From positions 3,286,001-3,350,000 of the forward strand of contig CM038916.1 of NCBI GenBank assembly GCA_021904315.1: a stretch of 64,000 nucleotides of DNA. The letters are read 5' to 3'. Shown piece after piece: positions 1 to 64,000 of the stretch. Positions within the stretch are counted from its first letter, which is position 1; every line of letters starts with the position of its first letter. The notes beneath the pieces are model-generated. The model was given only the letters and a program-made list of their open reading frames with translations, made no database searches and was not told where the DNA came from. The position numbers and the translations under genes were made by a program. Origin of the DNA: Sphagnum magellanicum (lineage: Eukaryota; Streptophyta; Sphagnopsida; Sphagnales; Sphagnaceae).

Positions 1-815
1 AATCAAGGCCTCTTGCTCCAATGTTAAGATATTGTTGTTTGTGCACCAAATGAGCTTTAATGGATTGCATGACAAATTCATGAACATCTAGTTTCACTTT
101 GTGGGAACAAATTTTAATAAAAATGTTGAACTTCAATCCTGGTGTTGCACATGTTTCAACGATATGTTGCTTTTGCCTAGCCCATATGAGTCGGTTAAAG
201 GTGCATAGCATATTTGAAATCATTGTGGGAGGTTAAAGATTGTTATCTTGTTCATCACCAAAACCATGAAAAATTTAACATATTCACAAAAGGAGCAAGA
301 TCTTTTTGTTTTAAAAAAATCCTACTATGAAGATCATTATAATAATCATGATGTTTACATAAATCTCTAAAGGCATTTTCACCCATGTCTCTCACTACTT
401 AAACTTCCATTACCAAGTTTTAAAACATTTTGGAATTTGACAAGTTCTAAATCTTGAAATCCACATGACAAACTCCCAATATACTTTTCACTATGAGAAA
501 AAGGGGTGTTTTACAACTAGCCTTGCAACTCACTATATATATGGTGCAATTCATTACAACTCAATTGCAACTTTGTCACAACAACTTCTTTTTAATTACT
601 ATGCAACTCCCCTACAACTACAACCTTAGTGTCATGCTAACATCATTTTTCATCCATTCATCAAAATTGAACACATGGCACTATGAAGATTTTTTGTGAT
701 TTTTTTGAAATATTGATATCCATCATCCATTATGATTATTCATTTTAGATGGTCTTGGATTGTGACATGTGGCACAATCAAAAGTTGCCATGTGGCATAT
801 TATTGAATTTTGGAA

Positions 816-832
816 ACACACACACACACACA
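816..832. repeat. (CA)n microsatellite
   Basis: Uninterrupted CA dinucleotides inside module A. In A'' the same place carries an (AT)n run (about 56,350-56,371), so the microsatellite changed after the copies separated. Confidence 0.85.
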
Positions 833-857
833 GATATGTATATGTACTTGGGTAAGT

Positions 858-960
858 TGGTACATAACCATAGGTAGGTAAGTTGATATAACTCCAACCT
901 ACCTATTTACTTAACTACTTACTTACTTACTTAGGTAGGCAAGTAAGTAGGTAGGAAAGT
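858..960. repeat. GGTA/TACC palindromic tetranucleotide block
   Basis: Runs of TACC/TTAC on the left face runs of GGTA/AGTA on the right, so the strand can fold back on itself. Equivalent blocks lie in A' (about 21,865-21,990), A'' (about 56,390-56,490) and the A-type fragment at about 47,300-47,340. Confidence 0.7.
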
Positions 961-2462
961 AAAATACTAGAAGGTAGGTGAATTAAAAAATAGCCACTTC
1001 AGTTTTTAAATTTATTATGCATTTTGCATTTAAAATTAAGCTTTTATGAACTCATCCCAACATGGCACATATATTTTGATGTGAAAATGCAAGAGGAGAC
1101 ACCTCCTTTATATAATTTGTGAAATGAGATATTGAAAACAAAATATATGGGTTAAATTGTTTAGTTGCAACCTAGTTGCAATTGAAGTTGGAACTACAAA
1201 AAACAATTTTCCACATGCTTTTTGTTTAATTTAAATTCTGTAATTAATTTGAAATTTATAACTAATCATCTGACATAAATATTTGAAATTTAATTATTTG
1301 AATTCAATATATGATAATTAATTGTCTAGATTGATTATATGAATTAATTAATATAATTCAGATAACTAGCTAGTTGATTAATTCAAATAACTAATTATCA
1401 AAATAAATATTAGATGATTAATTATTTTAATAACTATTAAAAATTAATTATGTTGATAATTGATGATCTAAATTCAAATAAAATTCAATATTTACTCACC
1501 TACATTAACAAAGTTTATTATGTAAAATTATTTGAATTAATTAATTAATTTTGTATAATTAGTGAATGAGTTTAAGTAATTAGTTATTAGATAATTAATT
1601 AATTAATTAAATTTTATTAATAAATTCATATGAATAGTTTATTATCTAATATACTTAATTAGTTCATAATAATTAAATATATTGCGTATTAATTACTAAT
1701 TTAAAATTAATTAAAATTTTTATTCTGAAATATTAAATAAAAAAACATGAATTTGAATAAAAAACATTGAAGTATATAGAGACATATTCATATGTACACC
1801 CTTATTGAATGTTTAATAAAATATATACATTGCTTTTAATTTCAATTCAAAAATAGACTTTCACCTTTCATGAAAATTATGGTTTGATATTTAGATATGT
1901 ATACCAACATAATATTGTGAATTTCAATATAGTGAAATATTATTAAAACAAAAATTGACCATCAATCACAAAAAATAGGACTATAATATTTACTACATTA
2001 TTTTAAAATAATTTATTTAGATAATTATGAAAATGAATTATTTTAACTAATTTATACCAATGGTTTATTATTTAGTGTATTTTTTAGTTCACAGTAATTA
2101 AGTAAATTAGCCATAAATTAATATTTAATATGTAGTAATTATTTTTAAATATTATATATTAAATGTGCCCCAAGATATAACATTTGTGGGTGTCACAACT
2201 AGTGGCATAGTAGTGGGCAACTAGAAGTACAATAATGACCACTTAGTGGCAATATAGTGGCCAACCAATTGCACAAATAGACTTCATATTTTGAAAACCA
2301 ATTAGAAAGTTTGTACCTCATGAATGAGTTTCAAAACATAGTACCTCAATACGTGAACACCTTTGTGAGGATGCCTCACCCTATACATCAATTTCCCTCC
2401 TAGAAATATTAGAGGGCGGCACAATCATGGTAAGGGTACCCCCCAAAGAACCATAGGAAGAT

Positions 2463-5160
2463 AATGCGAAAGACCGACTCAGTACACACACAGGAACCTG
2501 TAAGAACTCGGAGGAGGAACCATGGACCTTCCCAGCAACCAGCGAGCTAGCTACTTTCCTAGTTGTTGGAAATCTTTTTTAATTCCTGGTACAGACGACA
2601 GACCAGTACATACGACTTCTGGACCCCAGGTGTCCATTTCCTGCAACTAGCGGTGATTCTCTGTTTATAAAGGAATTAGAAATGAATTTGGATTACACAT
2701 GTAGCTGACTTTATCTCAGGCACTCGAACTCCTCATTCTCCTCCCAGAAGAGAAATTAAGTTAAACTGATTTTTATATAAGGCAGTTTTCTTGTAGACGC
2801 TTTCTGTTGATTGGAGTGCATCTGGTCCTTAGAGAGACGATTATGATAACGATGATGATTATGCTACTGGCTCCTAACAATTAGTGCCAAGCTATTATGA
2901 ACCCAGCATGATTCTAGGACATTGTGGATTCTGACTACCGAAAACAAGTCAGTGTTTCTTTTTATGGCGAAATTAAAGTTGAAAGATTTTTCAGAATTTT
3001 TTTGCCAGATTTCACTAGTCAGCTAATGATACAGAACAATGCTTATATGTTTTTACTTTCATGGCTGTCTCTTTATAACCAAATTTTGCTAAATCTTCAT
3101 ACAGATTGTCAGTGGTTGATCTACATCACCAAATTGGAAAACAGGCTTTGATATAGAGCCCCGAAACAAGTTGAGTTGTGAATTCATTTCTGTGAAAGGC
3201 AAAACATCAGCTTGGGTGCAACAGCACCCACACTGGTACCATGGTAAAAGTCTTTTATTTTTTAATGTTGCTTCTAATCATTATAAATATTCCGCTCCTA
3301 CCCTAAATCAGGGTCTCTAAGTCCAAATTTATCATTTCCCCGGTTGAATATAGCCTCTAAGAGGCCTCACACTCAAGAAGGTGAAGGTACCAGTGTGGGT
3401 GCTGGTTAACCCTGGCCGGCAAACTTCCTGAAAAGCATGACCTGGATGGAAAACCAGAGACCAATTATGTCCATAGAGACATGAACGTGGAGGAGGGACT
3501 TCATTGCAAACTAGGTCATATTTTACCCATGTTTGATTTTCTTTCAAATTTCCACCAAAGCAATCACAATTAATTGTTGGGCCATGCCAAAACATCCTCA
3601 TTCACATTAATATTCCAACCCCATGTCACCTTTAGTTCACCTTTGTTTAATCCAAAAGAGAGGAAGGCACGTTAGCAAAGCCCTACAAAAGTTCTAGAAT
3701 TATTCACTTAATCCATAGCCCCCATTTTGGGTGCCTATTCACCTCTCCTATTAATCAGGTGAGGTGCTTCCAAGTCTGATTGGCCCATCACTAAAAATAA
3801 ATGAACCTATGGAGATTCCCCAAATTAGAAGGTTTTATTTTGAAGTATAGAGTTCCCGCTCTTTGGCCAAGGTATATAGGTGAAGTGAGAACAAATGTTG
3901 CCAAAGCATATGGGATAAAAGTGAGGTGCTATTGGGAACTCTTTGGGAAACATATCAAGAACTTGGGAACTCTTTGCTTTGACCCACCTCCAAGAGGAAA
4001 AAAAAAAGCTTGCTTGGAAAGTCCATTGTCTATTGTCCAAGTGGAAAGTGAACAATGGACCATTCACTCTCCACATCAAACACAACTTGAAAATAAAAAC
4101 CCTGCTCCCCTCACCCACAAGAAAAGAAGGGAGGCCCCTTCACTTCACAATGTGACTTCTCATTGGTTGCATAGAAATTGTATTCCTAAAATTGGCTGCC
4201 ACTATTTTTGGCCTAGACTAATAGCCCTTCTTATTAACTTGAACTTTGTCAATAATTTTGCCTATATTGGGAAGTTCAAGCTTTTTTTTAAATTTGATTA
4301 TTTTATTTTTATTTTGGTCTAGTACCACACCTAAATTGTGTCGTTCTGTGGTCCGATCCCAAAACATTTGAGAATCTTTATTCTGTATTAACAAGTTGTA
4401 CCAAGAATGCTTTCACTTTTGCTTTCTCATTGGGCACTTTCTGTTTATAGATCAGTTCGCATAATTTTTCGTGCCAATGATTTTTGTGCTTGTTTTCATC
4501 TATTCAAGTTGAAGGCAACATATATGTACTATCAATCTATTGTATTTTTCAGAATATAATTCTAGTAATGTTTAAGGCAGATCGTAACGTTCGAAATACA
4601 ATTGTATGTCATACATCCTTAGTGCTCAAGTCATGGGAGGAAATAGTGAATGAGATATGAGTGTTTCATTTTGGGATGTGATAACTTTTGAGTTGTTGAA
4701 ACCAGTTAGATGCATACAGATATTATTTGGGGATAGTGATCTCTGAAGCAATCATCTTATTTGAGTCATTAGTCAAGCCACCAAGGGTTACATTGAAATT
4801 GCATTTAGTGTGTTAAATGTTCCAACAAGGTCCGCTTGAATATTGTGACTAGTGAATTTTCTTTCTTCTTTGAATAAAGTATCAAAACATGTTCCAGGGG
4901 CTTAGAAATGTAGCAGTTATGTTTAATAAATGAAAACCATTTATGTGGTGCCTTGTGAGCTTAGCATCTTTCCCTGCTCCCCCAGTTGTAGCAAGCTTTG
5001 TACTAATTGCATGCGCTGGGCACAACACTACTTCTGTACCCCATTATTCTGTACCCCAGTATTCGCATCCTAGCACTTGCGAGGATGCTGTCTTCATTTT
5101 TTATTTGTATCCACCAGTAAGGATATTCAAGACCGACTTAGTACATACCCTGCAAGCCAT
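2463..5160. repeat. Module B, proximal part, copy 1
   Basis: Collinear with 57,955-60,650 at a constant offset of about 55,490. A minus-strand 89-residue frame at 3,332-3,601 differs at only two residues from the one at 58,823-59,092. The first part (about 2,510-3,650) is an older, diverged relative of the later stretch 6,050-7,100: both hold one 175-bp-type unit followed by the same succession of motifs. Frames here look like chance openings, without family signatures. No gene supported. Confidence 0.8.
3222..3404. repeat. Perfect 19-bp inverted repeat around 145 bp
   Basis: CAGCACCCACACTGGTACC at 3,222-3,240 is the exact reverse complement of 3,386-3,404. Related forms of this motif occur at about 18,268, 19,315, 52,510, 53,590 and 58,712. 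It could be the end of a small element, but no target-site duplication is evident. Confidence 0.6.
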
Positions 5161-6226
5161 AAGATTGGGGAGGCTGGACAATGGACGTTGCCTGCAACTG
5201 GCCAGGTAACATCTTTCCCAATTGTCGGCAAGCGTTTGATTCCTGGTAGACTCCAGCATACTGTACACACGACTTTTGGAACCCAGTTTCCTTTCCTGGA
5301 GCTAGTAGTGATTCTCTCTTTATTTTCAATGCAGAAGAATTAGAAATCAAGGAAGATGGACCTATCGGGCAACCAGCCAGGTAACATCTTTCCCAATTGT
5401 TGGAAAGCGTTTGATTCCTGGTAGACTCCAGAATACTTTTACACACGACTTTTGGAACCCAGTTTCCTTTCCTGGAACTAGCCGTGATTCTCTCTTTATT
5501 TTCAATGCAGAAGAATTAGAAATCAAGGACGATGGACCTTTCGAGCAACCAGCCAGGTAACATCTTTCCCAATTGTCGAAAAGCGTTTGATTCCTGGTAG
5601 ACTCCAGCATACTGTACACACGACTTTTGGAACCCGGTTTCCTTTCCTAGAACTAGCCGCGATTCTCTCTGTATTTTCAATGCAGAAGAATTAGAAATCA
5701 AGGACGATGGACCTTTCGAGCAACCAGCCAGGTAACGTCTTTCCCAATTGTTGGAAAGCGTTTGATTCCTGGTAGACTCCAGAATACTGTACACACGACT
5801 TTTGGAACCCGGTTTCCTTTCCTGGAACTAGTCGTGATTCTCTCTTTATTTTCAATGCAGAAGAATTAGAAATCAAGGAAGATGGACCTTTCCAGCAACC
5901 AGCCAGGTAACGTCTTTCCCAATTGTCGAAAAGCGTTTGATTCCTGGTAGACTCCAGAATACTTTACACACGACTTTTGGAACCCAGTTTCCTTTCCTGG
6001 AACTAGTCGTGATTCTCTCTTTATTTTCAATGCAGAAGAATTAGAAATCAAGGACGATGGACCTTTCGAGCAACCAGCCAGGTAACGTCTTTCCCAATTG
6101 TTGGAAAGCGTTTGATTCTTGGTAGACTCCAGAATACTGTACACACGACTTCTGGAACCCGGTTTCCTTTCCTAGAACTAGCCATGATTCTCTCTTTATT
6201 TTCAATGCAGAAGAATTAGAAATGAA
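5160..6226. repeat. 175-bp minisatellite, six units
   Basis: The start of GAATTAGAAAT recurs at 5,336, 5,513, 5,688, 5,863, 6,038 and 6,213, giving steps of 177, 175, 175, 175 and 175 bases. The first unit starts near 5,160. The same place in B'' has three units (60,650-61,190) and in B' one unit (about 38,770-38,970). A diverged single unit lies at about 2,510-2,680. Because 175 is not a multiple of three, the similar 60-100 residue minus-strand frames shift each unit and are not a protein. Confidence 0.95.
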
Positions 6227-6251
6227 TTTATTTGGACTTTGTAGCTGCTTT

Positions 6252-7985
6252 CATGTCCAGCGCTGGAACAGTCTCCTCCTCATCCGATAGAAATCAGCCT
6301 GATTTTGATACACTTGAGGCAGTTTTCTTGCAGGCACTTTCCATTGTTTGGGGTGCATTTGGTCCTTAGAGACACACTATGATAATGACCATGATTATGC
6401 TACCAGCTACTAATAATTAGTGCAATATATTCACCAGCATGACTTTAGTAGATTGTGGCTTCTTGATGCAGACAACAGGGGAGTGTTGCTTTTCCTGGCG
6501 AAGTTAAAAATTGAGAATGCCAAAAAGATGATTTTTTGGGGGGTTGTGCAATAGTCAGAAATTAGAATTCCAATAAAATAACCCGAAAAAAAATGCCAGA
6601 TTTGTGTATTAGATTCCAGCAGGAAGCCTAAATATATAGGACGTTCAAAGGTTTTTACTTTCATGTCTCTTTCAGCTTTGTGGCCAAATTTGGCCAAATC
6701 CTCCAACAGATGATCAGCACGTGGAAGTTGGTCTACACTCCTCACCAAAAATTGAAAAAAGGGAAGAATAAAAAGAGAAAGGAGCTAGCTACAAGAGTGA
6801 GCCTCAAAAACAGTTGAGGTATAAATTCCTTTCTTTGGAAGACAAACATCTAACTTACTTCTGGCTAAGCATCACAGGGATGGAAAACCCAAGATGCCAA
6901 TATGTGCTTTTATGTGCCCCTACAAAGATGAACCTGGAGGGAGGGACTGCATGGAAAACTACATAATCTCATCCAAGTAGGAGTTTCTTTCGAATTTCAA
7001 TGAAAGGAAAACTCAACTAAAATATTGGCTGGGCCATATCAAAACATCCTCAGTGCACTATTCCGAGTCCAACCCCAACTTTGGTTCACCTATCAACAAA
7101 TGATAATGTAATTCAAATTACTTAGTTTGGGAGCACAATCTTGAGATTTTGTTTTGGGTGATAGACCTCTCTGATTGGTTTGTCACCCAAAACCAAAAAA
7201 CCCACACTTGACACACTTGACACAGTACTAACATAGAAATTGTTCACGTAACCCACTAATTGGCACTAATCTAAGTGAAAAAACTGAAACTTTCTAAATC
7301 TCCATGCACAAGACAAATTCTATTTACACTAAGCATGCAACTCTCTGGTCTCCCCATAGCATAAGGAAGAAGAAATAATAAGGGAACAGAGAAGAACAAA
7401 ATGACATAAAAGGAAAGTAATGAATTTGTGAGAAATGCTGATACAGAAAGCAAAAAAGAAGATCTAATTCTTTTGTACATGTGGTGCACCCATGTAAGTG
7501 AAAACAATAGAACTTCTTTGAACCTTCATAACCGCTTTGCAAACTAAATCAAAACAAAAGTTTACCTCTAGGGTTCTGTCCATGTGACTAATAGAGGCAA
7601 GTGAAAAGAATACGACTCTTTTGGACCTCCACAACCACCTTGCAACCAAACCAAAATAAAAGCTTGCATTTACTGTTCTCTTCTTGTGGCTCACCCATGT
7701 AAGTGAACAAAATAGAACTACTTTGGACCTTACAACCACCTTGCAAACTAAACCAAAATAAAAGTGTGTCATCACACCAAAAAGTCACCAACGACCTATT
7801 TTAATAGAGAAAATAGAACTCACAACCCCCCCCACCCTCCCCCCCCACCCCACCCTCCCAAATAAAAAAGAAAAAACTCACATCACTTGCCCCCTTCCAA
7901 AAGAAAAAAATCTTAGGCCTGAGGTGCATGTTGCATCTCCTCATTGGCTCAACAGGATTTGATTCTTAAATTTGTTGGCCATTTT
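6252..7985. repeat. Left arm of long inverted repeat, copy 1
   Basis: Reads as the reverse complement of 11,987-13,633 with many substitutions and small indels. Matching landmarks are the outer CATGTCC / GGACATG, the GGCTGGGCCATATC region near 7,035 against GATGGCCCAGCC near 12,850, and the inner block GTGCATGTTGCATCTCCTC near 7,925 against its inverse near 12,030. The same arm is at 38,999-40,686 and 61,215-62,848. No gene is supported; the frames at 7,271-7,791 are repeat-derived. Confidence 0.85.
7826..7859. repeat. C-rich tract (G-runs on minus strand)
   Basis: Long runs of C broken by single A or T. The corresponding tract is longer at 62,690-62,726 and short in B' (about 40,558-40,567). 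The minus strand has four or more G-runs, enough for a G-quadruplex in principle. Confidence 0.85.
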
Positions 7986-10900
7986 CTCGCCCACAATAAT
8001 GCTAGGGGCACTAATTGGGGTACATAGTTTATTCCAATATAGAAGCTAGAGAAAGCATGTGAGCAAAGCTGAACAAAACCTCTAAAATGTTTGACTTGCA
8101 CTCCACATTTTATCTTGTTCTTTTTACCTTCTGTTAAATGATGGAGGAAGGTTAGCAGGTAGCACAGTTGTTCTGGGTTCAAATTGAAGAGCAAGAGATC
8201 CTTTTTCTAAGGAAAAACAATTCCCTCCTATTTGTAAATGGTCAATTCCTGGCATTTCAAAGGAACCTGAGTAAAACTAGAGCTGTAAAAATCTAGCTTT
8301 GAGAACTTGCTTTTCACGCTCACCAAAATCAACAAGCACTCCAATTTGAAGTCATGTAGAAATAACAGCTCCCATGTGTCAACCTTTAATAAATGTGATG
8401 ACCAAGTTGCTTCTAATTAGCTGAGTCAACATGAGTTTGTTGAGAAAAAATTATCCTAATACTTGTTCTACAACTTATTTACAAGTATATGTAAATCGTA
8501 AATCCTAAACATTATGCATGTCAACTTGTATTTTTGTAAATTTTTTGATGTAACAAATTAAATGGTGATGACTCATAGGAAGATTTAGTGATTAATTTGG
8601 CTACAACCTAAATATGAAAGTGGTTTCTTAAAAATATCCTTCAATATTTTTGGGTACTTACTGGAACCATGTACATAAATCTCAAAAAGAAATTTTCTTG
8701 AATTTTGGTTGAATTCTAGCTGTTGAAAATCTCAAAAAACATTTTATCACTTTTAACCTTTCATATAGCTTTTTGGCTATATATATAGCCAGAAAAAACG
8801 AGGCTAATGCATGTGTACATAGCAACAACCAGAAGTTGGCATTGTAATAATTAAGGCTCCACATGAAAATAGGCATATGTTCTTTACTTGTTAAGTCAGA
8901 AACACATTTTGCCTTCATTGAACTGCAATTATAACATGGAGTTACTACAGGCAATGTAGAAGAAAATGGATATCATCGTAAGGTTCAGTATTTATCATGA
9001 ACCATTCTTGTCTAGTGACACCCTAAAATGTACTTGCCCAACTAATGGGTTACACACATGACCACATCACTCAAATAGGATTGTAGTGAAAGTGGAGTGT
9101 GGAATAGGCCCATTGTAGATTGTAGTGCTGCCACACAGCTTTAGGGGTGTCAGGGTATCGATGCACACCTTCCCCATACATTTCTAAAAGTATTCCAACT
9201 CTTAACCTTACCCTCACATTTTACACATCCTTGATTCATGGTGGTCCAGAAGAAGACATTGCATGTGGACATTTTGTTGAACATTCCCCAATCACCCTCC
9301 ATGCTCCCCACATTTCACATGTGTATCCATGAGGCTACTGCCCACAAAGCCATCAAACTCACATCAAGTTTGAATGATCTCTTCATCAACACATCCACAA
9401 GCCTCTTTATAAGCATTATGACTTTATAAGCACACACATTTTGGTCCCCATTGAAAGTTACACAGTTTACGTGCTCCACAATTCCTACGATCTAACACTA
9501 AACAGTTCTAATGCCGTCTACCCTTCATTCACATTTCACATGGAGGAGGAAGGTGAGAACTTGGAACCAGATGTCTGTCTTGAAATACCATGATTGTTAG
9601 CATTATGGATTTTCCCATAATTCGGATGTTCTAATGAAACCGAAAACAAGGGTGTAAAAAGAAGAATCTCTTACGCAGGAGTAACTCATAGTAAAAACAC
9701 CACTCTTGGAAATCTAAACATCATTAATGAAACTTATGCCCAAAAAGAAATCTCCATATTTTATGCACTTCTCACAATTGCCGACTCACAACAGACACCT
9801 TGAAGTTGAAAGGGGAGCTGAATGTGGAACTAAATTTGGAGAAGTGTAGCCAAAAGAAAAGTTTCAGGTCAAATGTCTAAGGATTCAAGAACTTCTTGTG
9901 ATGAGACATGGAAATACAGGTTGGTTTTTGATATTCATCAAAGCAAATACCTAGCTCATAAGGATCTTGTCAAATCACAATATGTCCCCAACAAGCACAG
10001 TCGGTGTTTTGTTTGTAACCAATTTCAAAGCCTATAGGGGGTTGTTTATGAATAACCCACCCTTGGACTCTTGTTGATATCTGACCATTTTCTCCAATGA
10101 CCCACCAACACTGGACACTACCATAGCATGGGCATTCAGGGCCTGGTCAAAAGGGTTGGGTCCATCCCAAGTTCCTGTTACATTCATGGATGCAACACTT
10201 ATGCATCATGCCCTTCCTTTAGCATGGCATTTACAAGTGCATATGGGCATCATGTTGAGCATGGTCTTAAGGCCCCTTTACACTTGGAGTCAAGGCTGAA
10301 AGAACTTGGGGGCCAACTTTGAGCATCTTTGGCTTGTTGTTTGGCCCAAACTTACTAGTAAATGCTAGAACAGTCACCTCATGATATTAATAAATGCTCG
10401 AACAGTGGCCCCAAGAGTTGCAAATTGGCTTCCCAAATCCGGTGGTATCCTTTTTTGAGCCTCTGGGCCAATAGAAGGCCATAAAGTTCAACATTTATAT
10501 TAGTAAGTTGGGGCAGATTCAAAATACTTTTTCTATTTCAGCCTTGACTCCTATTGTAAGGCCCTTGGGGCTGATTTCAACTTTTGCACCAATAGGAATG
10601 CTCAATTTGAGTTGAACATTGGCCTTGACTCCTTGTGTAAAGTGGGCCTAAATGTCCTCATGGATCCTGCATTTGCTATATATGGCCACTATGCTGCTAC
10701 CTACATCCATATTTAACTCTTAGTTATTTTAGTGTACCTAGAGTATGAATATGTGTATTCTCTTCAACTGCTCATAAAACAACACATGAATTGGGTACTA
10801 CACTAACAAAAGTTTAGCTGCTAGAAGTCACGAAACCTTCTTGTGTTTGGTGACAAAGTTAAACGTGGTCTTTCAGGTTGAAGCAACACCATGAGGGATG

Positions 10901-11986
10901 GATGGTGGGAGAACAGGAAATAATTTTCTATGGGGGTCCTATCTCATGGCTAACCACATTGGTTCACCTAATTGATGTTTTTACAGTATTGCATAGCTTT
11001 TCATCCCTTGACATGGTTCTTTGCCCAGAACTTGCAATTTTTATGAAAGAACTAGTGGTTTTAAGGCCGGTAATTTGATATATTCAAGTTTTTGGTCAAC
11101 CAGGGGTGTGTACAAGAACTAGTTTTTATTTGTTTTCTGGGAGTCGTGATTAACAACCATCCTGATAATTGTCAGGGCTCAGTTAGTATCCACCTAACAT
11201 TGCTATTGACTCATTATTAGAGAACCACCAGTTCCAGTTCTTTGAATCAGAGAATTGTTAGTTCTAGGACTTTCAATAAACAATTCAGAATCAGAGAACC
11301 AACGGTTCCTGTTCTTTGAAAAAAAAAAAGATTAAAGAATCACTAGTCCTAGTTAGTTGGAAAACTTAAAAAACTGATAGTTTTCATCATGATAGAATGA
11401 GTAATCCTATAAGCGGTTAATTGATTTTTTAATTTTTTTAGAACTGTATCTATATATCGGAACTGGTTCTTTCAGATTTTCGCCAACAAATGATTATGAA
11501 TCCTAAGAATCACACTAATAACCACTAGGGCTCTGTCCTCATTTCTAATAACCGCCCAACACTCCTGTTAACAGCTATATTTACCTCCTAATCACCTACT
11601 TGCTCCTACCTATATTAGCATTGTGACGACGTTTGATCGATTGTGTGCATTGATGGTGAATTAGACTCAACTTTGGGAGTTTTACAATGTTTCATCCAAG
11701 TTGGGGACGTAGTCTGCAGATAATGAAGACAGTTACAGGGTCACATAGGTCCCCCAGCATAGTGGACATGAATCCATGTCATTTAGGACATGGGTCTACT
11801 TGGAGAAATCCACAACTTTTGCCAAAAACTTCCAAAAAAAACTTTGTACAATTCACACCGGATTTTTTTGTTTCAGCACCGTGTGAAAATTCACCCAAAA
11901 AAGAACACTACTTGTAACCAGGGTTTTTTTTAAAGTTTGTGGTTTTGAAAGTTTGGCAAATTTTTGCAAAATTAAAAAATATAAAT
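7986..11986. repeat. Spacer of long inverted repeat, copy 1 (end of B and most of C)
   Basis: Collinear with 40,687-45,220, and its first part with 62,849-64,000. Unit 2 is longer because a segment near 9,625-9,720 is replaced there by about 650 bases (42,230-42,885). No transposase, polymerase or other family signature was seen in any frame. Confidence 0.75.
11093..11545. mobile_element. Possible short hAT-like non-autonomous element
   Basis: Starts CAGGGGTGTGTAC, like the C/TAGGGGTGT ends common in plant hAT elements, and is rich in scattered AACC/GGTTC words as many such elements are. The right end is not clear and no 8-bp target duplication was found. The copy at about 44,237-44,685 is equivalent, so insertion predates the duplication. 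Low confidence. Confidence 0.25.
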
Positions 11987-37846: not shown

Positions 37847-37860
37847 CTCTTCTCTACGCG

Positions 37861-47940: not shown

Positions 47941-47954
47941 AATTAGCTTGCACA

Positions 47955-48065
47955 AGTGCACAAGTGCATGTGTATGTATGGATATATATATGTTTATATG
48001 TATGTATATATGTATGTATATTTGTGTAACTGTGTATGTATGTGCATATACATGTATGTTTGTAG
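47955..48065. repeat. TATG/TGTA microsatellite, copy 2
   Basis: Counterpart of 13,630-13,715, longer and starting with a different flank (GCACAAGTGCACAAGTGC). Frames across it encode only Tyr/Met/Cys/Val strings. Confidence 0.85.
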
Positions 48066-51000: not shown

Positions 51001-54000
51001 AAGATGCATGGTGATCCCCATGGGAGTTTGATATAAAAGATAAATCATGTTCATGGCACGTTGTTCTGTGAAGAATTTCTTATCATTCTTTGATTATTAG
51101 GACATCAAAATTATGAATCCTAATAATGTCCTAATAAGGATTTAACAAAACTTCTCATCAAACTTGTTAAAATAGGATATCAAGGCTCTGAAATTTCATG
51201 TACCTACTTTAAAGGCCAATTTAACTATTTTCCCAATTCCCCAACACCTAACACCTAGAACTTTTTCAAGGGCCCTAATTTCCCTTGTTTGAGATCTTTT
51301 CCAAATTTTTAATGAATTCTCTAAATTTTTATGTTCTTCCAAAAAGGTTTATATTCAAGATGATCATGTAATGCAATCTTTCATTTATGCCGATCTTGGA
51401 AGGCTTTTCCTGTATCATTCTCAAAGAATCATTGCCCTCAACCCGATACCAATCTTCATGTTCTTGGATGTTATAATCCTCTATACTTAAAATTTTGTCC
51501 ATTTTGCAATGTTTTTGGTCTACCGCATGAACTTTGTAGAACCACATTCACTTTTATGTCTGATGACCATAACATTGGCAAACATCAAGACAAAGGGCAT
51601 AAGTGTTCATTGAACTTTCTGAGATGGTATAAAGGAAGAGCTTTTGAATTGTTATAATATGAATGAACACTAGTTTCAATTCCCTTCAACTTCAAAGGGG
51701 TCCTAAAAACACTAAGTTATGAGTATGTACTATACATTACATTTGAGTCAAGGCTAGTGACTTTTACTTTTTTTGCATTTTGGATACCCAAAAAAATTGG
51801 GAAAGTTTGATTCAAAAAAATAATTGCCAAAAACTTGAGAAATTTTTGAAATTTTCAGGAACAAAACTTGGGGGTGGGGGAAAAGAAACCTTGTGAAAGC
51901 GTGAAAAACTAAATCATGAATACTTGAAACTTGGTTTATTCATTATCCAAATCATTACATACATGAATAGGATTGCTTTGAGCAAGATGCTACATGAGAA
52001 TAATGGATGAAAATTCATATTTTCAAATAGTGCAATGGATATGCATAATGGTTTTAGGAGCATTAGGCTTTAGGCATGCTCATGTTGAGTGTTCAAGTTT
52101 CAAGAATATATTGCATGTTTCTACATTCAAATTTCTTACTAGAAAAAACTCAACGTGCCTTTGAATCACCATCAAATTTTGAGACATTAATCATTCAACA
52201 AACATGTGTCAAAGCTGCCAAGGTATTCTTTTCAATTAATTAGTTGTGTGGATAAGGAAGAAGTGATTGTTTTGGATGTGACGTGGCTCTTTGATTGGCC
52301 TATAACCAAAAAGATCACCCAAACATTGATATTCTAAAAATAAAAGATTATATAACCTTATTATTTGGTCTTGATTTCAAGCGTTGAAATGTAGGCAAAG
52401 GGTATGGGATAATGCACGGTGCTTTGGGATGAGCTTGGGGAACACTTGAGAACTTGGGCAACACAGTGGGAGCATCATGTCAGACAACTGAAACTTCGTG
52501 GGACACCCTATGGGAAAGGGTGAACTAGCACCAACAAAGTTGGCACCTTCACCTTCTTGTGTGAGGCCTTTTAAAGGCCATATTAACCCCCCAAAATGTT
52601 AGAAACTGACCTCTGTGGATGCCTGTTGAGCCATTTCACTCGCTGCATGAAGTTTCCATGCATAAAACTGGTCATCACCATTTTTACTTTATGCCATCCT
52701 CCTAAGAGGGCGGGTACCTATTTCACATTTAAAGAATATTTTGTGTAAAACTAGAGATAAAGTTTTAGGTGAGTTCTTTTATTTCCAGACAGCGTGAATT
52801 TTCTCCATTTGCCAAAAATATATTTTCAAAAAAAAATTTATTTCCAAATATTCCTTTTTGTAAATCTCCAAAATTTGAAAAAATTCTTCAAAATCACCAT
52901 GTTCTTACACATTGTTAAAGCAAATAGCCAGGATATAAAAAGGATTTTTTGTAAGTTTTTCACTTTCATAGCTGGTCTACAGCCAAATGTGGCTAAATCT
53001 CCTTGTGGATGATTGCCAGTGCGACGTCACACAATTAAAAAAATAAAATCACTGTTTGTTGTGGGTCCCCTTTCTTGAAAGTCGTTTATATCAATCCACA
53101 ACAGTGTTTTTATTTTGTTCGAAATTTCGCCAAAATGTGAAATCTGAGAGTGTCATGCGAACCTTCTCAAACAGCTTTTTTTTTGGTATTTTTTCAAAAA
53201 CTTCGCCAGGAAAGTAGAGAATAAAGGGTTGAGTTCGCCACATTTAGACTACCTATCTGCTCCTACAAGTAGCTAAAAAATAGCAGGATTCGGAAAAAAA
53301 GTTACTTTCCTATCTGTCCTGTAGCCAAATTCTGCTAAATCTTCCTATGGATCGTTGCCAATGTGAGTACGTCACAAAATTGAAAAAAAAAACACTGATC
53401 CACAGCAGTGTTTATTCCTCATATTTGTGACGTGAAATTTGCCAGAATTTTGCTCCAAATTAGCAAAATTGGTCAGAATTATAATAGAAAAACACATTTC
53501 TCCAAATTTTCTTAGATTTTTTTGTCGAAAAAAGGAAAAATTTGCTGGAAAAAAAAACCCGGATCCAAAGTACCCAAAGCATTGGGTGAACCACCACCTA
53601 CACTCAAGTGCAAGCTTTAAATCAGACGATGAGGTCCATTGGTTTTTCTCAAATCTGTGAGATCTAAGAAATGGTAATAGATGTCCCAAAAAAAAAATTC
53701 AGTCCAAATTGCATTGGAAAATCAGAAATTTCCAACTGTTCCACAAACATTTATTGCAACAGTGTGGAAATTCACCAAAAAAAGAAAACCATTGATCAAG
53801 TATCTTGCATCAAATCAACATATATGGTAGAGGAAAATTGTTTTGGTGTTCTCTAAAATTGCCATGAATTTATTCTATTCAAATGGCAATCAATTTCTAC
53901 CTATTTTGTGTAAGCTCCCTGCCTTAGTATGCTCACAAAAAAACTACAAGCAATCCAATCCTTCAAACAATCATTTACTCCCTATTCTTTACAACTTGAA

Positions 54001-55533
54001 TCTCTTTATAGTCATCACAAAACAATGAATCATTCAAAGTATTTTTCTTGAAATCTTGCATGATTGTAACAACATCAAGCATCTTGAAAAATTTTCAAAG
54101 AGAAGCAACCATTGTTGGGTCCAAAAACATCAAATTCACATGTTGGTAATGGGGAAATTGATGACCAATTTGATTACTTGAACTTGCATGTGAATCCTTA
54201 ATTGCAATAGATGATGGTTCCTCAACAAGTTTCTTCCTTGTTATAGATTGTTCATTCTTCTCAATTAGATTAGCAATGGTTTTCAAACCATTAAGACTCT
54301 CCCATAATTTCATATCAAACATTGAAAATGTAATTTTCTTCTATTCTTAAGGAGAAAGTACAAAAACATTAGTAGTTTATTACACACATTAATTCCATAA
54401 TGAAGAGGTTCAACATCCTTCACTTTGACTTCCTAATAAAAGGTATGCAATAATAGATTTAGTATCTTAAATGAAGTTTTATTTTATTTTTCAAACTTTG
54501 ACATTTCAACAATCAACAAAATAATCTCAAATAGTTAACATAAATCAAATAAATCAATACCTCTATGGCTTGCTACTTAACATTTCTTGATTTAAGACCT
54601 CTTGGTAGGTGAGGTTATTTCCATGAAAAGTTTCCATTACAATTATGTGTTGCAACGTTTCATCAATGATCGTCTTTTTAGTCTAATTGCACTTGCTATA
54701 ACTACATAGTGGATGCCAATGTGTTTTTTCCAATGGTTGTGTTTGAAAACCAAACATCATTAGATGGTTTGATTGATTTCTTTCATGTTTGAAACATCAA
54801 ATGTAGTCTTGGTTCTTTTTCAGACCAAACACATCTACATGTTTCATTAGCTCCTTATAACATTGTACAACCATAGGATCTAGAAAATCAAGTGGTTGGT
54901 CATTGGTTTCCCACTCCACAATGATTAACATTGATTTTTAAATTTTTTGGTGGAGACGAATTGTATCACAAAAAATTTCCTTAACTATTAACATGTGGAG
55001 AAAACTTCACATTGTATATCTAGGTGCAAACGAGATAATAGGACCCATTTAAGCATTTTTCGTGACTACTTTAAAACTTGTATCCTAACAATATTTTGTA
55101 AAAAATGTTTTTAATCATTGAAATTTTTCTTTATATCATTGTGTTAAGATTTGCATTAAAATTTTGCCAAAAAATGCCACATGATCAATGTTTTTCCAAA
55201 TTCATTTATTAATCCTTTCACTACTTAAAAACACTAGTTATAGTGTTTTAAAAATGATTTTACACATTTTCAAATCACTATATTGATTTTAAATTTACTT
55301 ACATGTTCCCATGATATATATGAATGTTGTCATATAAGTAAACCGAACAATTTCAATCCGAAATTATTTATTTAAAAACATGAAAAATTAAGTACTAATT
55401 ACATTTAGTGTTTTTGCCCACACCCACTTGTTGCATTTATTGGCTAGTTTGAATTAAAATAAACCAAATGCAAAAATATATGAATTTGTTGTTCAATCCC
55501 CAAGGAGTCTTCAAAGACCATTGATTTGATGTT
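48066..55533. repeat. Module D'
   Basis: Collinear with 13,716-20,980; the indels and the inverted segment (49,050-49,171) are listed with the findings. The stretch 54,485-55,125 has no counterpart in D. No intact gene. Confidence 0.85.
54095..54322 (-). pseudogene. Coding-like 75-codon frame, unrecognised
   Basis: Starts with ATG (54,320-54,322). The N-end MFDMKLWESLNGLKTI looks like an amphipathic helix; a Ser-rich, charged middle follows. The homologous place in D (about 20,150-20,390) is not open. Probably part of an old mobile element together with 55,437-55,751. Family unknown. Confidence 0.25.
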
Positions 55534-55751
55534 AAAATCAAGGCCTCTTGCTCCAATGTTAGGATATTGTTCTTTGTGCACCAAATGAGCTTTAATGGAT
55601 TGCATTCATGAACATCTAGTTTCACTTTGTGGGAACAAATTTTAATAAAAATGTTGAACTTCAATCTTGGTGTTACACATGTTTCAACGATATGTTGTTC
55701 TTGCCTAGCCCATATGAGTCGGTTAAAGGTGCATAACGTATTTGAAATCAT
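55437..55751 (-). pseudogene. Coding-like 104-codon frame across the D'/A'' border, unrecognised
   Basis: Starts with ATG (55,749-55,751) and stays open for 104 codons with a fairly balanced composition (TCVTPRLKFNIFIKICSHK near the middle). Equivalent stretches in A (1-215) and A' (20,890-21,200) are not open to the same extent. Same strand as the other A-type coding-like scraps. I cannot name a domain, so this may be chance. Confidence 0.25.
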
Positions 55752-57954
55752 TGTGGGAGGTTAGAGATTGTTATCTTGTTCATCACCAAAATCATGAAAA
55801 ATTTAACATATTCACAAAAGGAGCAAGATCTTTTTGTTTAAAAAAAGTCATACTATGAAGATCATTATAATAATCGTGATGTTTACATAAATCTCTAAAG
55901 GCATTTTCACCCATGTCTCTCACTACTTAAACTTCCATTTACCAAGTTTCAAAACATTTTGGAATTTGACAAGTTCTAAATCTTGAAATCTACATGACAA
56001 ACTCCCAATATACTTTTCACTATGAGAAAAAGGGGTGTTTTGCAACTAGCCTTGCAACTCACTATATATATGGTGCAATTCATTACAACTCAATTGCAAC
56101 TTTGTCACAACAACTTCTTTCCAATTACTATGCAATTCCCCTACAACTACAACCTTAGTGTCATGCTAACATCATTTTTCATCCATTCATCAAAATTGAA
56201 CATGTGGCACTATGAGGATTTTTTGTGATTTTTTTGAAATATTGATATCCATCATCCATTATGATTATTCATTTTAGATGGTCTTGGATTATGACATGTG
56301 GCACAATCAAAAGTTGCAATGTGGCATATTATTGAATTTTGGAAACACACGCACATATATATATATATATATGTACTTGGGTAGGTTGGTACATAACCAT
56401 AAGTAGGTAAGTTGATATAACTCCAACCTACCTATTTACTTAACTACTTACTTACTTAGGTAGGCAAGTAAGTAGGTAGGAAAGTAAAATACTAGAAGGT
56501 AGGTGAATTAAAAAATAACCACTTAAGTTTTTTAATTTATTATGTGTTTCGCTTTTATAATTAAGCTTTTATGAACTCATCCCAACATGGCACATATATT
56601 TTGATGTGAAAATGCAAGAGGAGACACCTCCTTTATATAGTTTATGAAACGAGATATTGAAAACAAAATATATGGGTTAAATCTTTTAGTTGCAACCTAG
56701 TTGCAATTGAAGTTGGAACTACAAAAAACAATTTCCCACATGCTTTTTGTTTAATTTAAATTCCGTAATTAATTTAAAATTTATAACTAATCATTTGACA
56801 TAAATATTTGAAATTTAATTATTTGAATTCAATATATGATAATTAATTATCTAGATTGATTATATGAATTAATTAATATAATTCAGATAACTAGTTAGTT
56901 GATTAATTCAAATAATTAATTATCAAACTAAGTACCAAATAATTAATTATCAAAATAAATATTAGATGATTAATTATTTTAATAACTATTAGAAATTAAT
57001 TATGTTAATAATTGATGATCTAAATTCAAATAAAATTCAATAATTACTCACCTACATTAATAAAGTTTATTATGTAAAATTATTTGAATTAATTAATTAA
57101 TTACATTTTATTAATAAATTCATATGAATAGTTTATTATCTTATATAATTAATTAGTTCATAATAATTAAATATATTACATATTAATTATTAATTAAAAA
57201 TTAATTAAAAATTCATTCTGAAATATTAAATAAAAAGACATGAATTTGAATAGAAGACATTGAGGTATAGAAAGACATATTCATATGTACACCCTTATTG
57301 AATGTTTAATAAAATATATACATTGCTTTTAATTTCAATTCAAAAATAGGCTTTTACCTTTCATGAAAATTATGGTTTGATATTTAGATATGTATACCAA
57401 CATAATATTGTGAATTCCAATATAGTGAAATATTATTAAAACAAAAATTGACCATCAATCACAAAAAATAGGACTATAATATTTACTACATTATTTTTTT
57501 TAAAAATTATTTAGATAATTATGAAAATGAATTATTTTAACTAATTTATACCAATGGTTTATTATTTAGCCTATTTTTTAGTTCACAGTAATTAAGTAAA
57601 TTAGCCATAAATTAATATTTAATATGTAATAATTATTTCTAAATATTATATATTAAATGTGCCACAAGATATAACTTTTGTGGGTGTCACAACTAGTGGC
57701 ATAATAGTGGGCAACTAGAAGTACAATAATGACCCTAGTGGCAATATAGTGGCCAACCAATTGCACAAATAAACTTCATATTTTGAAAACCAATTAGAAA
57801 GTTTGTACCTCATGGATGAGTTTCAAAACATAGTACCTCAATACGTGAACACCTTTGTGAGGATGCCTCACCCTATACATCAATTTCCCTCCTAGAAATA
57901 TTCGAGGGCGGCACAATCATGGTAAGGGTACCCCCCAAAGAACCATAGGAAGAT
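55534..57954. repeat. Module A''
   Basis: Near-identical to 1-2,462 (offset 55,529-55,491) and shares with it the lack of the 1.3-kb stretch present in A'. Includes an (AT)n run at about 56,350-56,371 and the palindromic GGTA block at 56,390-56,490. Confidence 0.9.
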
Positions 57955-60650
57955 AATGCGAAAGACCGACTCAGTACACACACAGGAACCTGTAAGAACT
58001 CGGAGGAGGAACCATGGACCTTCCCAGCAACCAGCGAGCTAGCTACTTTCCTAGTTGTTGGAAATCTTTTTTAATTCCTGGTACAGACGACAGACCAGTA
58101 CATACGACTTCTGGATCCCAGGTGTCCATTTCCTGGAACTAGCGGTGATTCTCTGTTTATAAAGGAATTAGAAATGAATTTGGATTACACATGTAGCTGA
58201 CTTTATCTCAGGCACTCGAACTCCTCATTCTCCTCCCAGGAGAGAAATTAAGTTAGACTGATTTTTATATAAGGCAGTTTTCTTGCAGACGCTTTCTGTT
58301 GATTGGAGTGCATCTGGTCCTTAGAGAGACGCTTTTGATGACGATGATGATTATGCTACTGGCTCCTAACAATTAGTGCCAAGCTATTATGAACCCAGCA
58401 TGATTTTAGGACATTGTGGCTTCTGGCTACCGAAAACAAGTCAGTGTTTATTTTTCTGGCGAAATTAAAGTTGAAAGATTTTCCAGAATTTTTTTGCCAG
58501 ATTTCACTAGTCAGCTAATGATACAGAACAATGCTTATATGTTTTTACTTTCATGGCTGTCTCTTTATAACCAAATTTTGCTAAATCTTCAGACAGATTG
58601 TCAGTGGTTGATCTACATCACCAAATTGGAAAACAGGCTTTCATATAGAGCCCCCAAACAAGTGGAGTTGTGAATTCATTTCTCTGAAAGGCAAAACATC
58701 AGCTTGGGTGAAACAGCACCCACACTGGTCCATGGTAAAAGTCTTTTATTTTTTAATGTTGCTTCTAATCATTATAAATATTCCGCTCCTACCCTAAATC
58801 AGGGTCTCTAAGTCGAAATTTATCATTTCCCCGGTTGAATATAGCCTCTAAGAGGCCTCACACTCAAGAAGGTGAAGGTACCAGTGTGGGTGCTGGTTAA
58901 CCCTGGCTGGCAAACTTCCTGAAAAGCATGACCTGGATGGAAAACCAGAGACCAATTATGTCCATAGAGACATGAACGTGGAGGAGGGACTTCATTGCAA
59001 ACTAGGTCATATTTTGCCCATGTTTGATTTTCTTTCAAATTTCCACCAAAGCAATCACAATTAATTGTTGGGCCATGCCAAAACATCCTCATTCACATTA
59101 ATATTCCAACCCCATGTCACCTTTAGTTCACCTTTGTTTAATCCAAAAGAGAGGAAGGCACGTTAGCAAAGCCCTACAAAAGCTCTAGAATTATTCACTT
59201 AATCCATAGCCCCCATTTTGGATGCCTATTCACCTCTCCTATTAATCAGGTGAGGTGCTTCCAAGTCTGATTGGCTCATCACTAAAAATAAATGAACCTA
59301 TGGAGATTCCCCAAATTAGAAGGTTTTATTTTGAAGTATAGAGTTCCTGCTCTTTGGCCAAGGTATATAGGTGAAGTGAGAACAAATGTTGCCAAAGCAT
59401 ATGGGATAAAAGTGAGGTGCTATTGGGAACTCTTTGGGAAACATATCAACAACTTGGGAACTCTTTGCTTTGACCCACCTCCAAGAGGAAAAAAAAAGCT
59501 TGCATGGAAAGTCCATTGTCTATTGTCCAAGTGGAAAGTGAACAATGGACCGTTCACTCTCCACACCAAACACAACTTGAAAATAAAAACCCTGCTCCCC
59601 TCACCCACAAGAAAAGAAGGGAGGCCCCTTCACTTCACAATGTGACTTCTCATTGGTTGCATAGAAATTGTATTCCTAAAATTGGCTGCCACGATTTTTG
59701 GCCTAGACTAATAGCCCTTCTTATTAACTTGAACTTTGCCAATAATTTTGCCTATATTGGGAAGTTCAAGCTTTTTTTTAAATTTGATTATTTTGTTTTT
59801 ATTTTGGTCTAGTACCACACCTAAATTGTGTCGTTCTGTGGTCTGATCCCAAAACACTTGAGAATCTTTATTCTGTATTAACAAGTTGTACCAAGAATGC
59901 TTTCACTTTTGCTTTCTCATTGGGCACTTTCTGTTTATAGATCAGTTCGCATAATTTTTAGTGCCGATGATTTTTGTGCTTGTTTTCATCTATTCAAGTT
60001 GAAGGCAACATATATGTACTATCAATCTATTGTATTTTTCAGAATATAATTCTAGTAATGTTTAAGGCAGATCGTAACGTTCGAAATACAATTGTATGTC
60101 ATACATCCTTAGTGCTCAAGTCATGGGAGGAAATAGTGAATGAGATGTGAGTGTTTCATTTTGGGATGTGATAACTTTTGAGTTGTTGAAACCAGTTAGA
60201 TGCATACAGATATTATTTGTGGATAGTGATCTCTGAAGCAATCATCTTATTTGAGTCATTAGTCAAGCCACCAAGGGTTACATTGAAATTGCATTTAGTG
60301 TTTAAATGTTCCAACAAGGTCCGCTTGAATATTGTGACTAGTGAATTTTCTTTCTTTTTTAAATAAAGTATCAAAACATGTTCCAGGGGCTTAGAAATGT
60401 AGCAGTTATGTTTAATAAATGAAAACCATTTATGTGGTGCCTTATGAGCTTAGCATCTTTCCCCGCCCCCCCAGTTGTAGCAAGCTTTGTACTAATTGCA
60501 TGCGCTGGGCACAACACTACTTCTGTACCCCATTATTCTGTACCCCAGTATTCGCATCTTAGCACTTGCGAGGATGCTGTCTTCATTTTTTATTTGTATC
60601 CACCAGTAAGGATATTCAAGACCGACTTAGTACATACCCTGCAAGCCATA
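57955..60650. repeat. Module B'', proximal part
   Basis: Near-identical to 2,463-5,160 at offset 55,490, including the 19-bp inverted-repeat motif, which has lost one base in its left half here. No gene supported. Confidence 0.9.
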
Positions 60651-61190
60651 AGATTGGGGAGGCTGGACACTGGACGTTGCCTGCAACTGGCCAGGTAACA
60701 TCTTTCCCAATTGTCGGCAAGCGTTTGATTCCTGGTAGACTCCAGCATACTGTACACACGACTTTTGGAACCCAGTTTCCTTTCCAGGAGCTAGTAGTGA
60801 TTCTCTCTTTATTTTCAATGCAGAAGAATTAGAAATCAAGGAAGATGGACCTATCGGGCAACCAGCCAGGTAACATCTTTCCCAATTGTTGGAAAGCGTT
60901 TGATTCCTGGTAGACTCCAGAATACTTTACACACGACTTTTGGAACCCGGTTTCCTTTCCTAGAACTAGCCGTGATTCTCTCTTTATATTCAATGCAGAA
61001 GAATTAGAAATCAAGGACGATGGACCATTCGAGCAACCAGCCAGGTAACGTCTTTCCCAATTGTTGGAAAGCGTTTGATTCTTGGTGGACTCCAGAATAC
61101 TGTACACACGACTTCTGGAACCCGGTTTCCTTTCCTTGAACTAGCCATGATTCTCTCTTTATTTTCAATGCAGAAGAATTAGAAATGAAT
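60650..61190. repeat. 175-bp minisatellite, three units
   Basis: GAATTAGAAAT starts at 60,826, 61,001 and 61,176: steps of exactly 175. Three units against six in B; the offset to copy 1 falls by 527 bases across the array, which is three units. Confidence 0.95.
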
Positions 61191-61214
61191 TTATTTAGAC
61201 TTTGTAGTTGCTTT

Positions 61215-62848
61215 CATGTCCAGCGCTGGAACAGTCTCCTCCTCATCCGATAGAAATCAGCCTGATTTTGATACACTTGAGGCAGTTTTCTTGCAGGCAC
61301 TTTCCATTGATTGGGGTGCATTTGGTCCTTAGAGACACACTATGATAATGACCATGATTATGCTACCAGCTACTAATAATTAGTGCAATATATTCACCAG
61401 CATGACTTTAGCACATTGTGAATGCCAATGTGGCTTCTTGATGCAGACAACAGGGAAGTGTTTCTTTTCCTGGCGAAGTTAAAAATTGAGAATGCCAAAA
61501 AAATGATTTTCTGGGGGGTTTTGCAATAGTCAGAAATTAGAATTCAAATAAAATAACCCCCAAAAAAATGCCAGATTTGTGTATTAGATTCCAGCAGGAA
61601 GCCTAAATATATAGGACGTTCAAAAGTTTTTACTTTCATGTCTCTTTCAGCTTTATGGCCAAATTTGGCCAAATCCTCCAACAGATGATCAGCACGTGAA
61701 GTTGGTCTACACTCCTCACCACAAAATTGAAAAAAGGGAAGAATAAAAAGAGAAAGGAGCTAGCTACAAGAGTGAGCCTCAAAAATAGTTGAGGTATGAA
61801 TTCCTTTCTTTGGAAGACAAACATCTAACTTACTTCTGGCTAAGCATGACATGGATGGAAAACCCGAGATGCCAATATGTGCTTTTATGTGCCCCTACAA
61901 AGATGAACCTGGAGGGAGAGACTGCATGGAAAACTACATAATCTCATCCAAGTAGGAGTTTCTTTCAAATTTCAATCAAAGGAAAACTCAACTAAAATAT
62001 TGGCTGGGCCATATCAAAACATCCTCAGTGCACTATTCCGAGTCCAACCCAACTTTGGTTCACCTATCAACAAATGATAATGTGATTCAAATTACTTAGT
62101 TTGGGAGCACAATCTTGACATTTTGTTTTGGGTGATAGACCTCTCTGATTGGTTTGTCACCCAAAACAAAAAAACCCACACTTGACACACTTGACACACT
62201 ACTAACATAGAAATTGTTCACGTAGCCCACTAATTGGCACTAATCTAAGTGAAAAAACTGAAACTTTCTAAATCACCATGCAAAAGACAAATTCTATTTA
62301 CACTAAGCATGCAACTCTCTGGTCTCCCCATAGCATAAGGAAGAAGAAATAATAAGAGAACAGAGAAGAACAAAATGACATAAAAGGAAAGTAATGAATT
62401 TGTGAGAAATGCTGATACAGAAAGCAAAAAAGAACATCTAATTCTTTTGTACATGTGGTGCACCCATGTAAGTGAAAACAATAGAACTTCTTTGAACCTT
62501 CATAACCGCTTTGCAAACTAAATCAAAACAAAAGTTTACCTCTAGGGTTCTGTCCATGTGACTAAACAAAATAGAACTACTTTGGACCTTAACAACCACC
62601 TTGCAAACTAAACCAAAATAAAAGTGTGTCATCACACCAAAAAGTCACCAACAACCTATTTTAATAGAGAAAATAGAACTCACAACAAACCCCCCCCCCC
62701 CCCCTCCCCCCCCACCCCACCCTCCCAAATAAAAAAGAAAAAACTCACATCACTTGCCCCCTTCGAAAAGAAAAAAATCTTAGGCCTCAGGTGCATGTTG
62801 CATCTCCTCATTGGCTCAACAGGATTTGATTCTTCAATTTGTTGGCCA
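61215..62848. repeat. Left arm of long inverted repeat, copy 3
   Basis: Collinear with 6,252-7,985, with about 75 bases missing near 62,565 (in the region matching 7,590-7,700). Its right arm would lie beyond the window. No gene seen. Confidence 0.85.
62690..62726. repeat. Expanded C-rich tract, copy 3
   Basis: An uninterrupted run of about 15 C, then further C-runs split by single T or A. Longer than its counterpart at 7,826-7,859. Confidence 0.85.
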
Positions 62849-64000
62849 TTTTCTCGCCCACAATAATGCTAGGGGCACTAATTGGGGTACATAGTTTATT
62901 CCAATATAGAAGCTAGAGAAAGCATGTGAGCAAAGCCAAACAAAACCTCTAAAATGTTTGACTTGCACTCCACATTTTATCTTGTTCTTTTTACCTTCTG
63001 TTACATGATGGAGGAAGGTTAGCAGGTAGCACAGTTGTTATGGGTTCAAATTGAAGAGCAAGAGATCCTTTTCTAAGCAAAAACAATTCCCTCCTATTTG
63101 TAAATGGTCAATTCCTGGCATTTCAAAGGAACCTGAGTAAAACTAGAGCTGTAAAAATCTAGCTTTGAGAACTTGCTTTTCACGCTCACCAAAATCAACA
63201 AGCACTCCAATTTGAAGTCATGTAGAAATAACAGGTCCCATGTGTCAACCTTTAATAAATGTGATGACCAAGTTGCTTCTAATTAGCTGAGTCAACATGA
63301 GTTTGTTGAGAAAAAATTATCCTAATACTTGTTCGACAACTTATTTACAAGTGTATGTATATCATAAATCCTAAACATTATGCATGTCAACTTGTATTTT
63401 TGTTAATTTTGTGATATAACAAATTAAATGGTGATGATTCATAGGAAGATATAGTGATTAATTTGGCTACAACCTAAATATGAAAGTGGTTTCTTAAAAA
63501 TATCCTTCAATATTTTTGGGTACTTACTGGAACCATGTACATAAATCTCAAAAAGAAATTTTCTTGAATTTTGGTTGAATTCTAGCTGTTTAAAATCTCA
63601 AAAAACATTTTATCACTTTTAATCTTTCATATAGCTTTTTCGCTATATATATAGCCAGCAAAAAAGAGGCTAATGCATGTGTACATAGCAACAACCAGAA
63701 GTTGGCATTGTAATAATTAAGGCTCCACGTGAAAATAGGCATATGTTCTTTACTTGTTAAGTCAGAAACACATTTTGCCTTCATTGAACTGCAATTATAA
63801 CATGGAGTTACTACAGGCAATGCAGAAGAAAATGGATATCATGGTAAGGTTCAGTATTTATCATGAACCATTCTTGTCTAGTGACACCGTAAAATGTGCT
63901 TGCCCAACTAATGGGTTACATACATGACCACATCACTCAAATAGGATTGTAGTGAAAGTGGAGTGTGGAATAGGCCCATTGTTGCTTGTAGTGCTGCCAC
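62849..64000. repeat. Start of inverted-repeat spacer, copy 3
   Basis: Collinear with 7,986-9,130 up to the window end. No gene seen. Confidence 0.85.

Follow-up and report, generated by a model that had tools for sequence, protein, structure and literature searches.

Clusters of genes for nucleotide-binding leucine-rich repeat (NLR) receptors are well known in flowering plants, and fine-scale pictures of the turnover of such clusters come mostly from these plants. At the SH3-CNL locus of coffee, a cluster of coiled-coil (CC) NLR paralogues shows duplications, deletions and conversion between paralogues, according to the sections of its description drawn on here (PMC3113787). In this study I analyse a stretch of 64,000 nucleotides (C10:3,286,001-3,350,000, in a genome of 439.0 Mb and 31 contigs), called the window throughout, which derives from a probable moss and contains one NLR gene between two copies of a long direct repeat. 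The window is probably part of a mosaic array of about 0.4 Mb that consists of NLR-bearing cassettes and was rearranged by repeated homologous exchange, the repeat pair some 55 kb apart being the product of one exchange of about 16 kb. Homologous exchange is the likely agent of these rearrangements. The array fits a birth-and-death NLR cluster, in that paralogues of one family lie mostly in one orientation and show mosaic relationships. In the literature searched, no paper on this locus was noticed, which is not proof of absence.

The window was compared with 236 kb of flanking sequence to the left and 23 kb to the right, with 3.1 kb at the next NLR to the right, with 2.6 kb of the NLR at 3,434 kb and with short loci, including L003 at 3,415 kb, all from a single assembly. 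Placements of markers and NLRs in the genome are those among the best ~40 candidates scored per search.

The direct repeat and its changing partners

When the window is compared with itself (BLASTN), three blocks recur in the same order and on the same strand: 1-5,701 with 55,536-61,189 (95.4% identity, 159 substitutions in 5,625 aligned bases), 5,702-7,662 with 60,665-62,624 (95.0%, 70 in 1,946) and 7,599-9,134 with 62,470-64,000 (94.9%, 56 in 1,522). Kilobases at about 95% identity rule out chance as their source. An earlier note on this DNA, made from the letters of the window, had described such an end-to-end repeat, and it is borne out at about 95% over 1-9,134 and 55,536-64,000. The offsets amount to 55,488-55,552, 54,961-54,975 and 54,859-54,872 in the three blocks, and three of the values in that note (55,529, 55,491 and 54,963) are found within these ranges, whereas the fourth, 54,908, is absent. 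The steps had been put down to indels, correctly so for the largest of them, 525 bases from 55,488 to 54,963, which is there because the two copies of a 175-bp tandem array differ by three units (Table 1). Small open frames, putative as genes, are here a yardstick of identity: those of 89 residues (3,335-3,601, minus; 5,074-5,340, plus) show two differences and those of 68 residues (493-696; 6,013-6,216) show three, as had been noted, with alternative pairings of the latter within the 175-bp array giving 6-7 differences. No Pfam match was found for three small frames of the repeat (173 residues at 3,801-4,319, 117 residues at 6,434-6,784 and 121 residues just left of the window). The intervening copies are, as the note also held, more diverged than the repeat ends, with 91.3% between 14,921-19,334 and 49,170-53,606, and 81.8% between 1-2,322 and 20,980-23,365 (BLASTN). 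The flanks confirm its further expectation that homology continues past both edges of the window.

With the flanks included, the 55-kb pair joins 3,281.0-3,297.1 kb to 3,335.5-3,352.0 kb and is about 16 kb long, and the window NLR lies outside it. Substitutions between the two copies range from 1.8% to 3.6% in five long alignments, leaving aside those in which units of the 175-bp array are out of register (5.5% and 7.6%) and those of further internal paralogues (about 20%). The left end of this tract is near 3,281.0 kb, within the segment S2, and the right end is within a few hundred bases of position 11,112, where three other copies align on (86-100% in 150-base steps); both ends fall in sequence common to other copies. 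At the very end of the right copy, a long terminal repeat (LTR) retroelement of 7.8 kb is inserted (C10:3,351,966-3,359,798), with terminal repeats about 97% alike and, judged by eye, a short target duplication. The left copy has the empty insertion site, and near this point the right copy ceases to be its closest partner. The frames of the element, RNase H- and integrase-like, presumably place it with Ty3/gypsy elements.

Past the LTR element, the right flank is collinear with the window interior, S1 and S2 by sequence and S3, S4, the NLR and its upstream region by marker, with substitutions of 6.1-8.4% over the longer alignments and of 11% over the final 0.6 kb. The piece at 3,367.4-3,373.0 kb differs from 3,113.4-3,118.9 kb, 254 kb away, by 3.05% substitutions, as against 8.4% between 3,367.3-3,372.5 kb and the window interior, and in both of these copies, at 3,367 and 3,113 kb, the S3 and S4 matches are shortened in the same way. 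Between 3,410-3,440 kb and 3,060-3,090 kb, five markers keep a constant offset of 350.50-350.54 kb; at this distance a gap-free comparison of L003 with L004 gives 34 differences in 4,524 bases, and two NLRs differ at 7 of 2,621 bases, five of these changing the amino acid, which makes the 350.5-kb pair the closest among those examined. The distance to the closest partner varies along the chromosome (22, 55, 125, 254 and 350 kb), with identities of 94% at an offset of 22.3 kb (20 pieces), 96.2% at 55.5 kb (19 pieces), 95-97% at 125 kb (24 pieces in the longest tract) and 96.7% at 254 kb (11 pieces). When the 323-kb stretch, window included, is cut into 646 pieces of half a kilobase, 492 of them have a same-strand paralogue of at least 400 bp within the stretch, as do 120 of the 128 pieces of the window. 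Within S1, sites at which the left copy sides with either the right copy or the copy at 3,103 kb are clustered (58 runs over 161 sites, shuffle mean 80, 0 of 5,000 shuffles with as few), as they are when the same three sequences are viewed from the right copy (37 runs over 133 sites, mean 59, again 0 of 5,000), these two tests being one triple seen from two sides.

Proposed homologous exchange and its alternatives

These observations are best explained by an older, collinear higher-order repeat of the order NLR-S1-S2-S3-S0-S1-S2-S3-S4-NLR, whose misaligned copies would exchange homologously, through unequal crossing-over and, over shorter patches, gene conversion. Exchanges at several distances would repeatedly duplicate, delete and overwrite stretches of this older repeat, and the 55-kb pair would be one such exchange of about 16 kb on top of it. 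Such an array is expected to generate receptor variants, from which immunity might benefit.

Several points weigh against this explanation. The data come from one assembly, and exchange is deduced from paralogues, not watched. The switching of partners could be imitated by patchy mutation or by the way AT-rich stretches align, and no signal (93 runs, 94 expected) came from the runs test in which the 3,173-kb copy was the third sequence. As the LTR element lies almost on the right end of the tract, a rearrangement linked to its insertion is possible. Moreover, markers served to place 3,373.0-3,390.5 kb and most of what lies beyond 3,393.6 kb, where the letters compared were those of L003 and of 2.6 kb of one NLR.

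The earlier note had seen in the window one period of a tandem duplication of about 55 kb that includes the NLR. As a recent event that decay and insertions, among them that of the 7.8-kb LTR element, have since disrupted, this would agree with the collinearity up to the right NLR, along which the offset grows from 54.9 to 62.7, 66.5 and 72.0 kb, and with the presence of an NLR on the left. However, I regard it as improbable, because it predicts about 97% identity across the second unit, and the divergence beyond the tract, together with the closer partner of the right flank 254 kb away, does not fit this. The nearest NLR on the same strand is 47.7 kb away on the left, with a protein identity of 82% (residues 1-696; 68% in the leucine-rich repeats, LRR), and 72.0 kb away on the right, with 76% (residues 1-762; LRR 63%). 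Same-strand copies do exist, as foreseen, both left and right of the window, but neither at the predicted 55 kb nor at the expected identity, and a uniform 55-kb unit is rejected on these values and the divergence of the flank. What stands of the proposed duplication is a direct repeat in an NLR-bearing array, with a tract of about 16 kb that leaves the NLR out.

Slightly less probable again is an origin of the 16-kb tract in one segmental duplication, through end-joining or template switching and independent of exchange in the array. The fairly sharp limits of the tract would suit it, as would a piece of about 0.5 kb (3,285.0-3,285.5 kb) that has just one other copy in the 323-kb stretch, but both limits are within homologous sequence in the same register, as homologous exchange predicts, and non-homologous junctions were seen at neither limit. 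That the assembly itself is at fault, through a false duplication or a duplicated haplotype, I consider very improbable: the part of the source consulted describes the assembly of Sphagnum divinum as built from PacBio continuous long reads (PMC9946827), which leaves some room for such an error, yet substitutions and many indels are scattered through the tract, the LTR insertion is in one copy only, and the source plant, if it is this species, was haploid according to the same part. Repeated homologous exchange within the array thus remains the favoured explanation, and the repeat distance that is read from a single window is the spacing of one pair of tracts, not the period of the array.

Cassettes, receptors and their neighbours

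The cassette of the array is S1-S2-S3-S4, followed by a minus-strand NLR with its upstream region, and the segments return in constant order and strand along the array. Two half-cassettes are joined by the variant order S3-S0-S1. Markers for S2, S3, S4, the NLR and its upstream region follow one another in this order at 3,060-3,090, 3,302-3,324, 3,368-3,396 (with S3 and S4 shortened) and 3,410-3,440 kb. The S2 marker has eight places in the array at 3.06-3.41 Mb, of which one is partial, and another place at 2.46 Mb, and short or weak matches only elsewhere among the 40 candidates scored; the S4 marker has six places in the array, two of them partial. The inverted repeat of S1 (6,252-7,979 with 11,991-13,633, 78%), which also matches other S1 copies, could, from its sequence, be the source of a hairpin transcript.

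Table 1. Segments, repeats and receptor gene in the window (positions in the window unless given as C10)
Feature	Positions	Strand	Remarks
Tract, left copy	1-11,112	+	starts ~5 kb before the window (C10 ~3,281.0 kb); 1.8-3.6% substitutions to right copy in long alignments
S0, left copy	2,464-5,701	+	limits approximate; also at ~57,956-60,664, C10 3,170 kb and partly 3,397 kb
175-bp tandem array, left copy	5,176-6,223	+	6.0 units; accounts for the 525-base step
S1	5,702-13,625	+	with 1.7-kb inverted repeat
S2, interior copy	14,634-20,397	+	
S3, interior copy	20,557-25,295	+	AT-rich; contains a genome-dispersed repeat family
S4, interior copy	25,282-30,026	+	first ~1 kb also dispersed
NLR, CC-NB-ARC-LRR	32,497-35,868	-	uninterrupted open frame, 1,123 residues
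72/144-bp tandem LRR repeats	33,307-33,806	-	expanded in the window NLR
NLR upstream region	35,869-38,629	-	main matches 89-94% to other array copies and to dispersed relatives
S1, second copy	38,797-48,829	+	C10 3,324.8-3,334.8 kb
S2, right copy	49,170-53,606	+	
Tract, right copy	49,496-64,000	+	runs on to C10 3,351,974 (= 65,974), where the LTR retroelement is inserted
S3, right copy	55,118-57,819	+	
175-bp tandem array, right copy	60,683-61,186	+	2.9 units

By its domains, the gene in the window is an NLR of the CC-NB-ARC-LRR type, with a putative role in immunity. It matches NB-ARC (148.8 bits, E 2e-43), LRR_14 (158.2 bits, LRR E 3e-46) and a winged-helix profile, and its motifs are intact (P-loop GMGGAGKT, kinase-2 LVLDDVW, GLPL and an MHD-like VHDV). 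Among 41 candidates scored, eight places of the closest family lie at 3.08-3.52 Mb, seven of them on the minus strand; the window is one of the eight and a kinase chimera another. A further NLR-derived frame is at 3,220.9 kb. Other close members are found on C13, on C8, at 2.47 Mb and at 8.65-8.88 Mb; the C8 sequence contains stops, and there is one stop at 2.47 Mb and one in a single member at 8.65-8.88 Mb. More distant NLRs are on further contigs. The LRR pattern matches seven times in the window NLR and at most once in each of five other members, one of which (the chimera at 3,242 kb) is without an LRR region. The NLR at 3,271 kb and its upstream sequence are 89.5% identical to those of the window at the DNA level, with 78% in the 3' LRR part. 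Synonymous distance increases along the gene, from 0.01-0.09 in the CC and 0.06-0.17 in the NB-ARC to 0.06-0.41 in the LRR, which is consistent with exchange or constraint being stronger at the 5' end. In the CC domain of seven members, the ratio of nonsynonymous to synonymous differences (pN/pS) exceeds 1 in 20 of the 21 pairs, with p < 0.05 in four of the 21 (one-sided Fisher tests, uncorrected, on non-independent pairs). This is only suggestive of positive selection, for which the CC domain would be an unusual site if the selection is diversifying and real.

The more unusual part of the array is outside the window and consists of NLR-kinase chimeras. In one of them (C10:3,242,337-3,245,813, minus), a single open frame has the CC-NB-ARC front of the NLR family joined, where the LRR would be, to a region that looks helical and to a protein kinase (Pkinase, 155 bits). 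The joined part has a free-standing relative at C10:2,789,704-2,791,265 (91% and 87% in two pieces), and more distant relatives on several contigs. A duplicate of the chimera at C10:3,220,000-3,222,211 (minus), at an offset of 22.3 kb and with 96.5% identity on the kinase side, has the CC fused straight to the helical and kinase region, and its frame breaks in the kinase and resumes in another frame. One could speculate, though I hold it to be rather unlikely, that the array generates receptors from modules in a plant whose haploid phase dominates, that exchange shuffles whole NLR modules there and has joined CC-NB-ARC in frame to a kinase, and that the duplicate (3,220,880-3,222,211) lost 1,239 bases (413 codons, the NB-ARC part) in the course of a conversion from NLR to kinase. 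The change would then have run in this direction.

Downstream of both chimeras are frames resembling phloem protein 2 (PP2), at C10:3,239,177-3,239,620 and 3,216,635-3,217,165 (minus); the one that was scanned scored 38.4 bits. Towards the left side of the array, AP2-like frames occur at C10:3,056,276-3,057,523 and, similar to it, at 3,142,988 and 3,152,406; the one tested scored 33.6 bits with a cut-off of 33.3. Large frames with many tandem units, ankyrin-repeat-like by eye, are at C10:3,165,976-3,169,030 (minus).

Comparison with known systems

The array adds one more example to a kind of NLR cluster that is already described. A bryophyte array with graded partner tracts, from 99.7% to the low nineties, would make exchange measurable in haploid gametophytes without allelic confusion.

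Among receptor types, the window NLR is similar in its CC, NB-ARC and LRR, and perhaps in its start MVEP(I/M), to the MAEPL-type CC-NLRs of non-flowering plants, as far as these are described in the part of the source used here (PMC11218826). Seven array members start with MV(E/D)P, and the likeness was judged by eye. Entries for RPW8-type NLRs (the ADR1 family and the like) figure among the better PDB matches, and the RPW8 profile gives a weak match of 22.9 bits; as this is below the Pfam gathering score of 30.4, assignment to that type is rejected.

Among clusters, the coffee SH3-CNL locus, within the sections cited (PMC3113787), shares with the array a clustered CC-NLR family, duplications and deletions, and exchange among paralogues. 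It differs in that the array belongs to a probable moss and its tracts, of at least 10 kb, take in non-coding segments. In coffee, those sections report positive selection in solvent-exposed residues of the LRR (PMC3113787); in the present array the ratio of nonsynonymous to synonymous substitution rates (dN/dS) of the LRR is above 1 in one of ten pairs.

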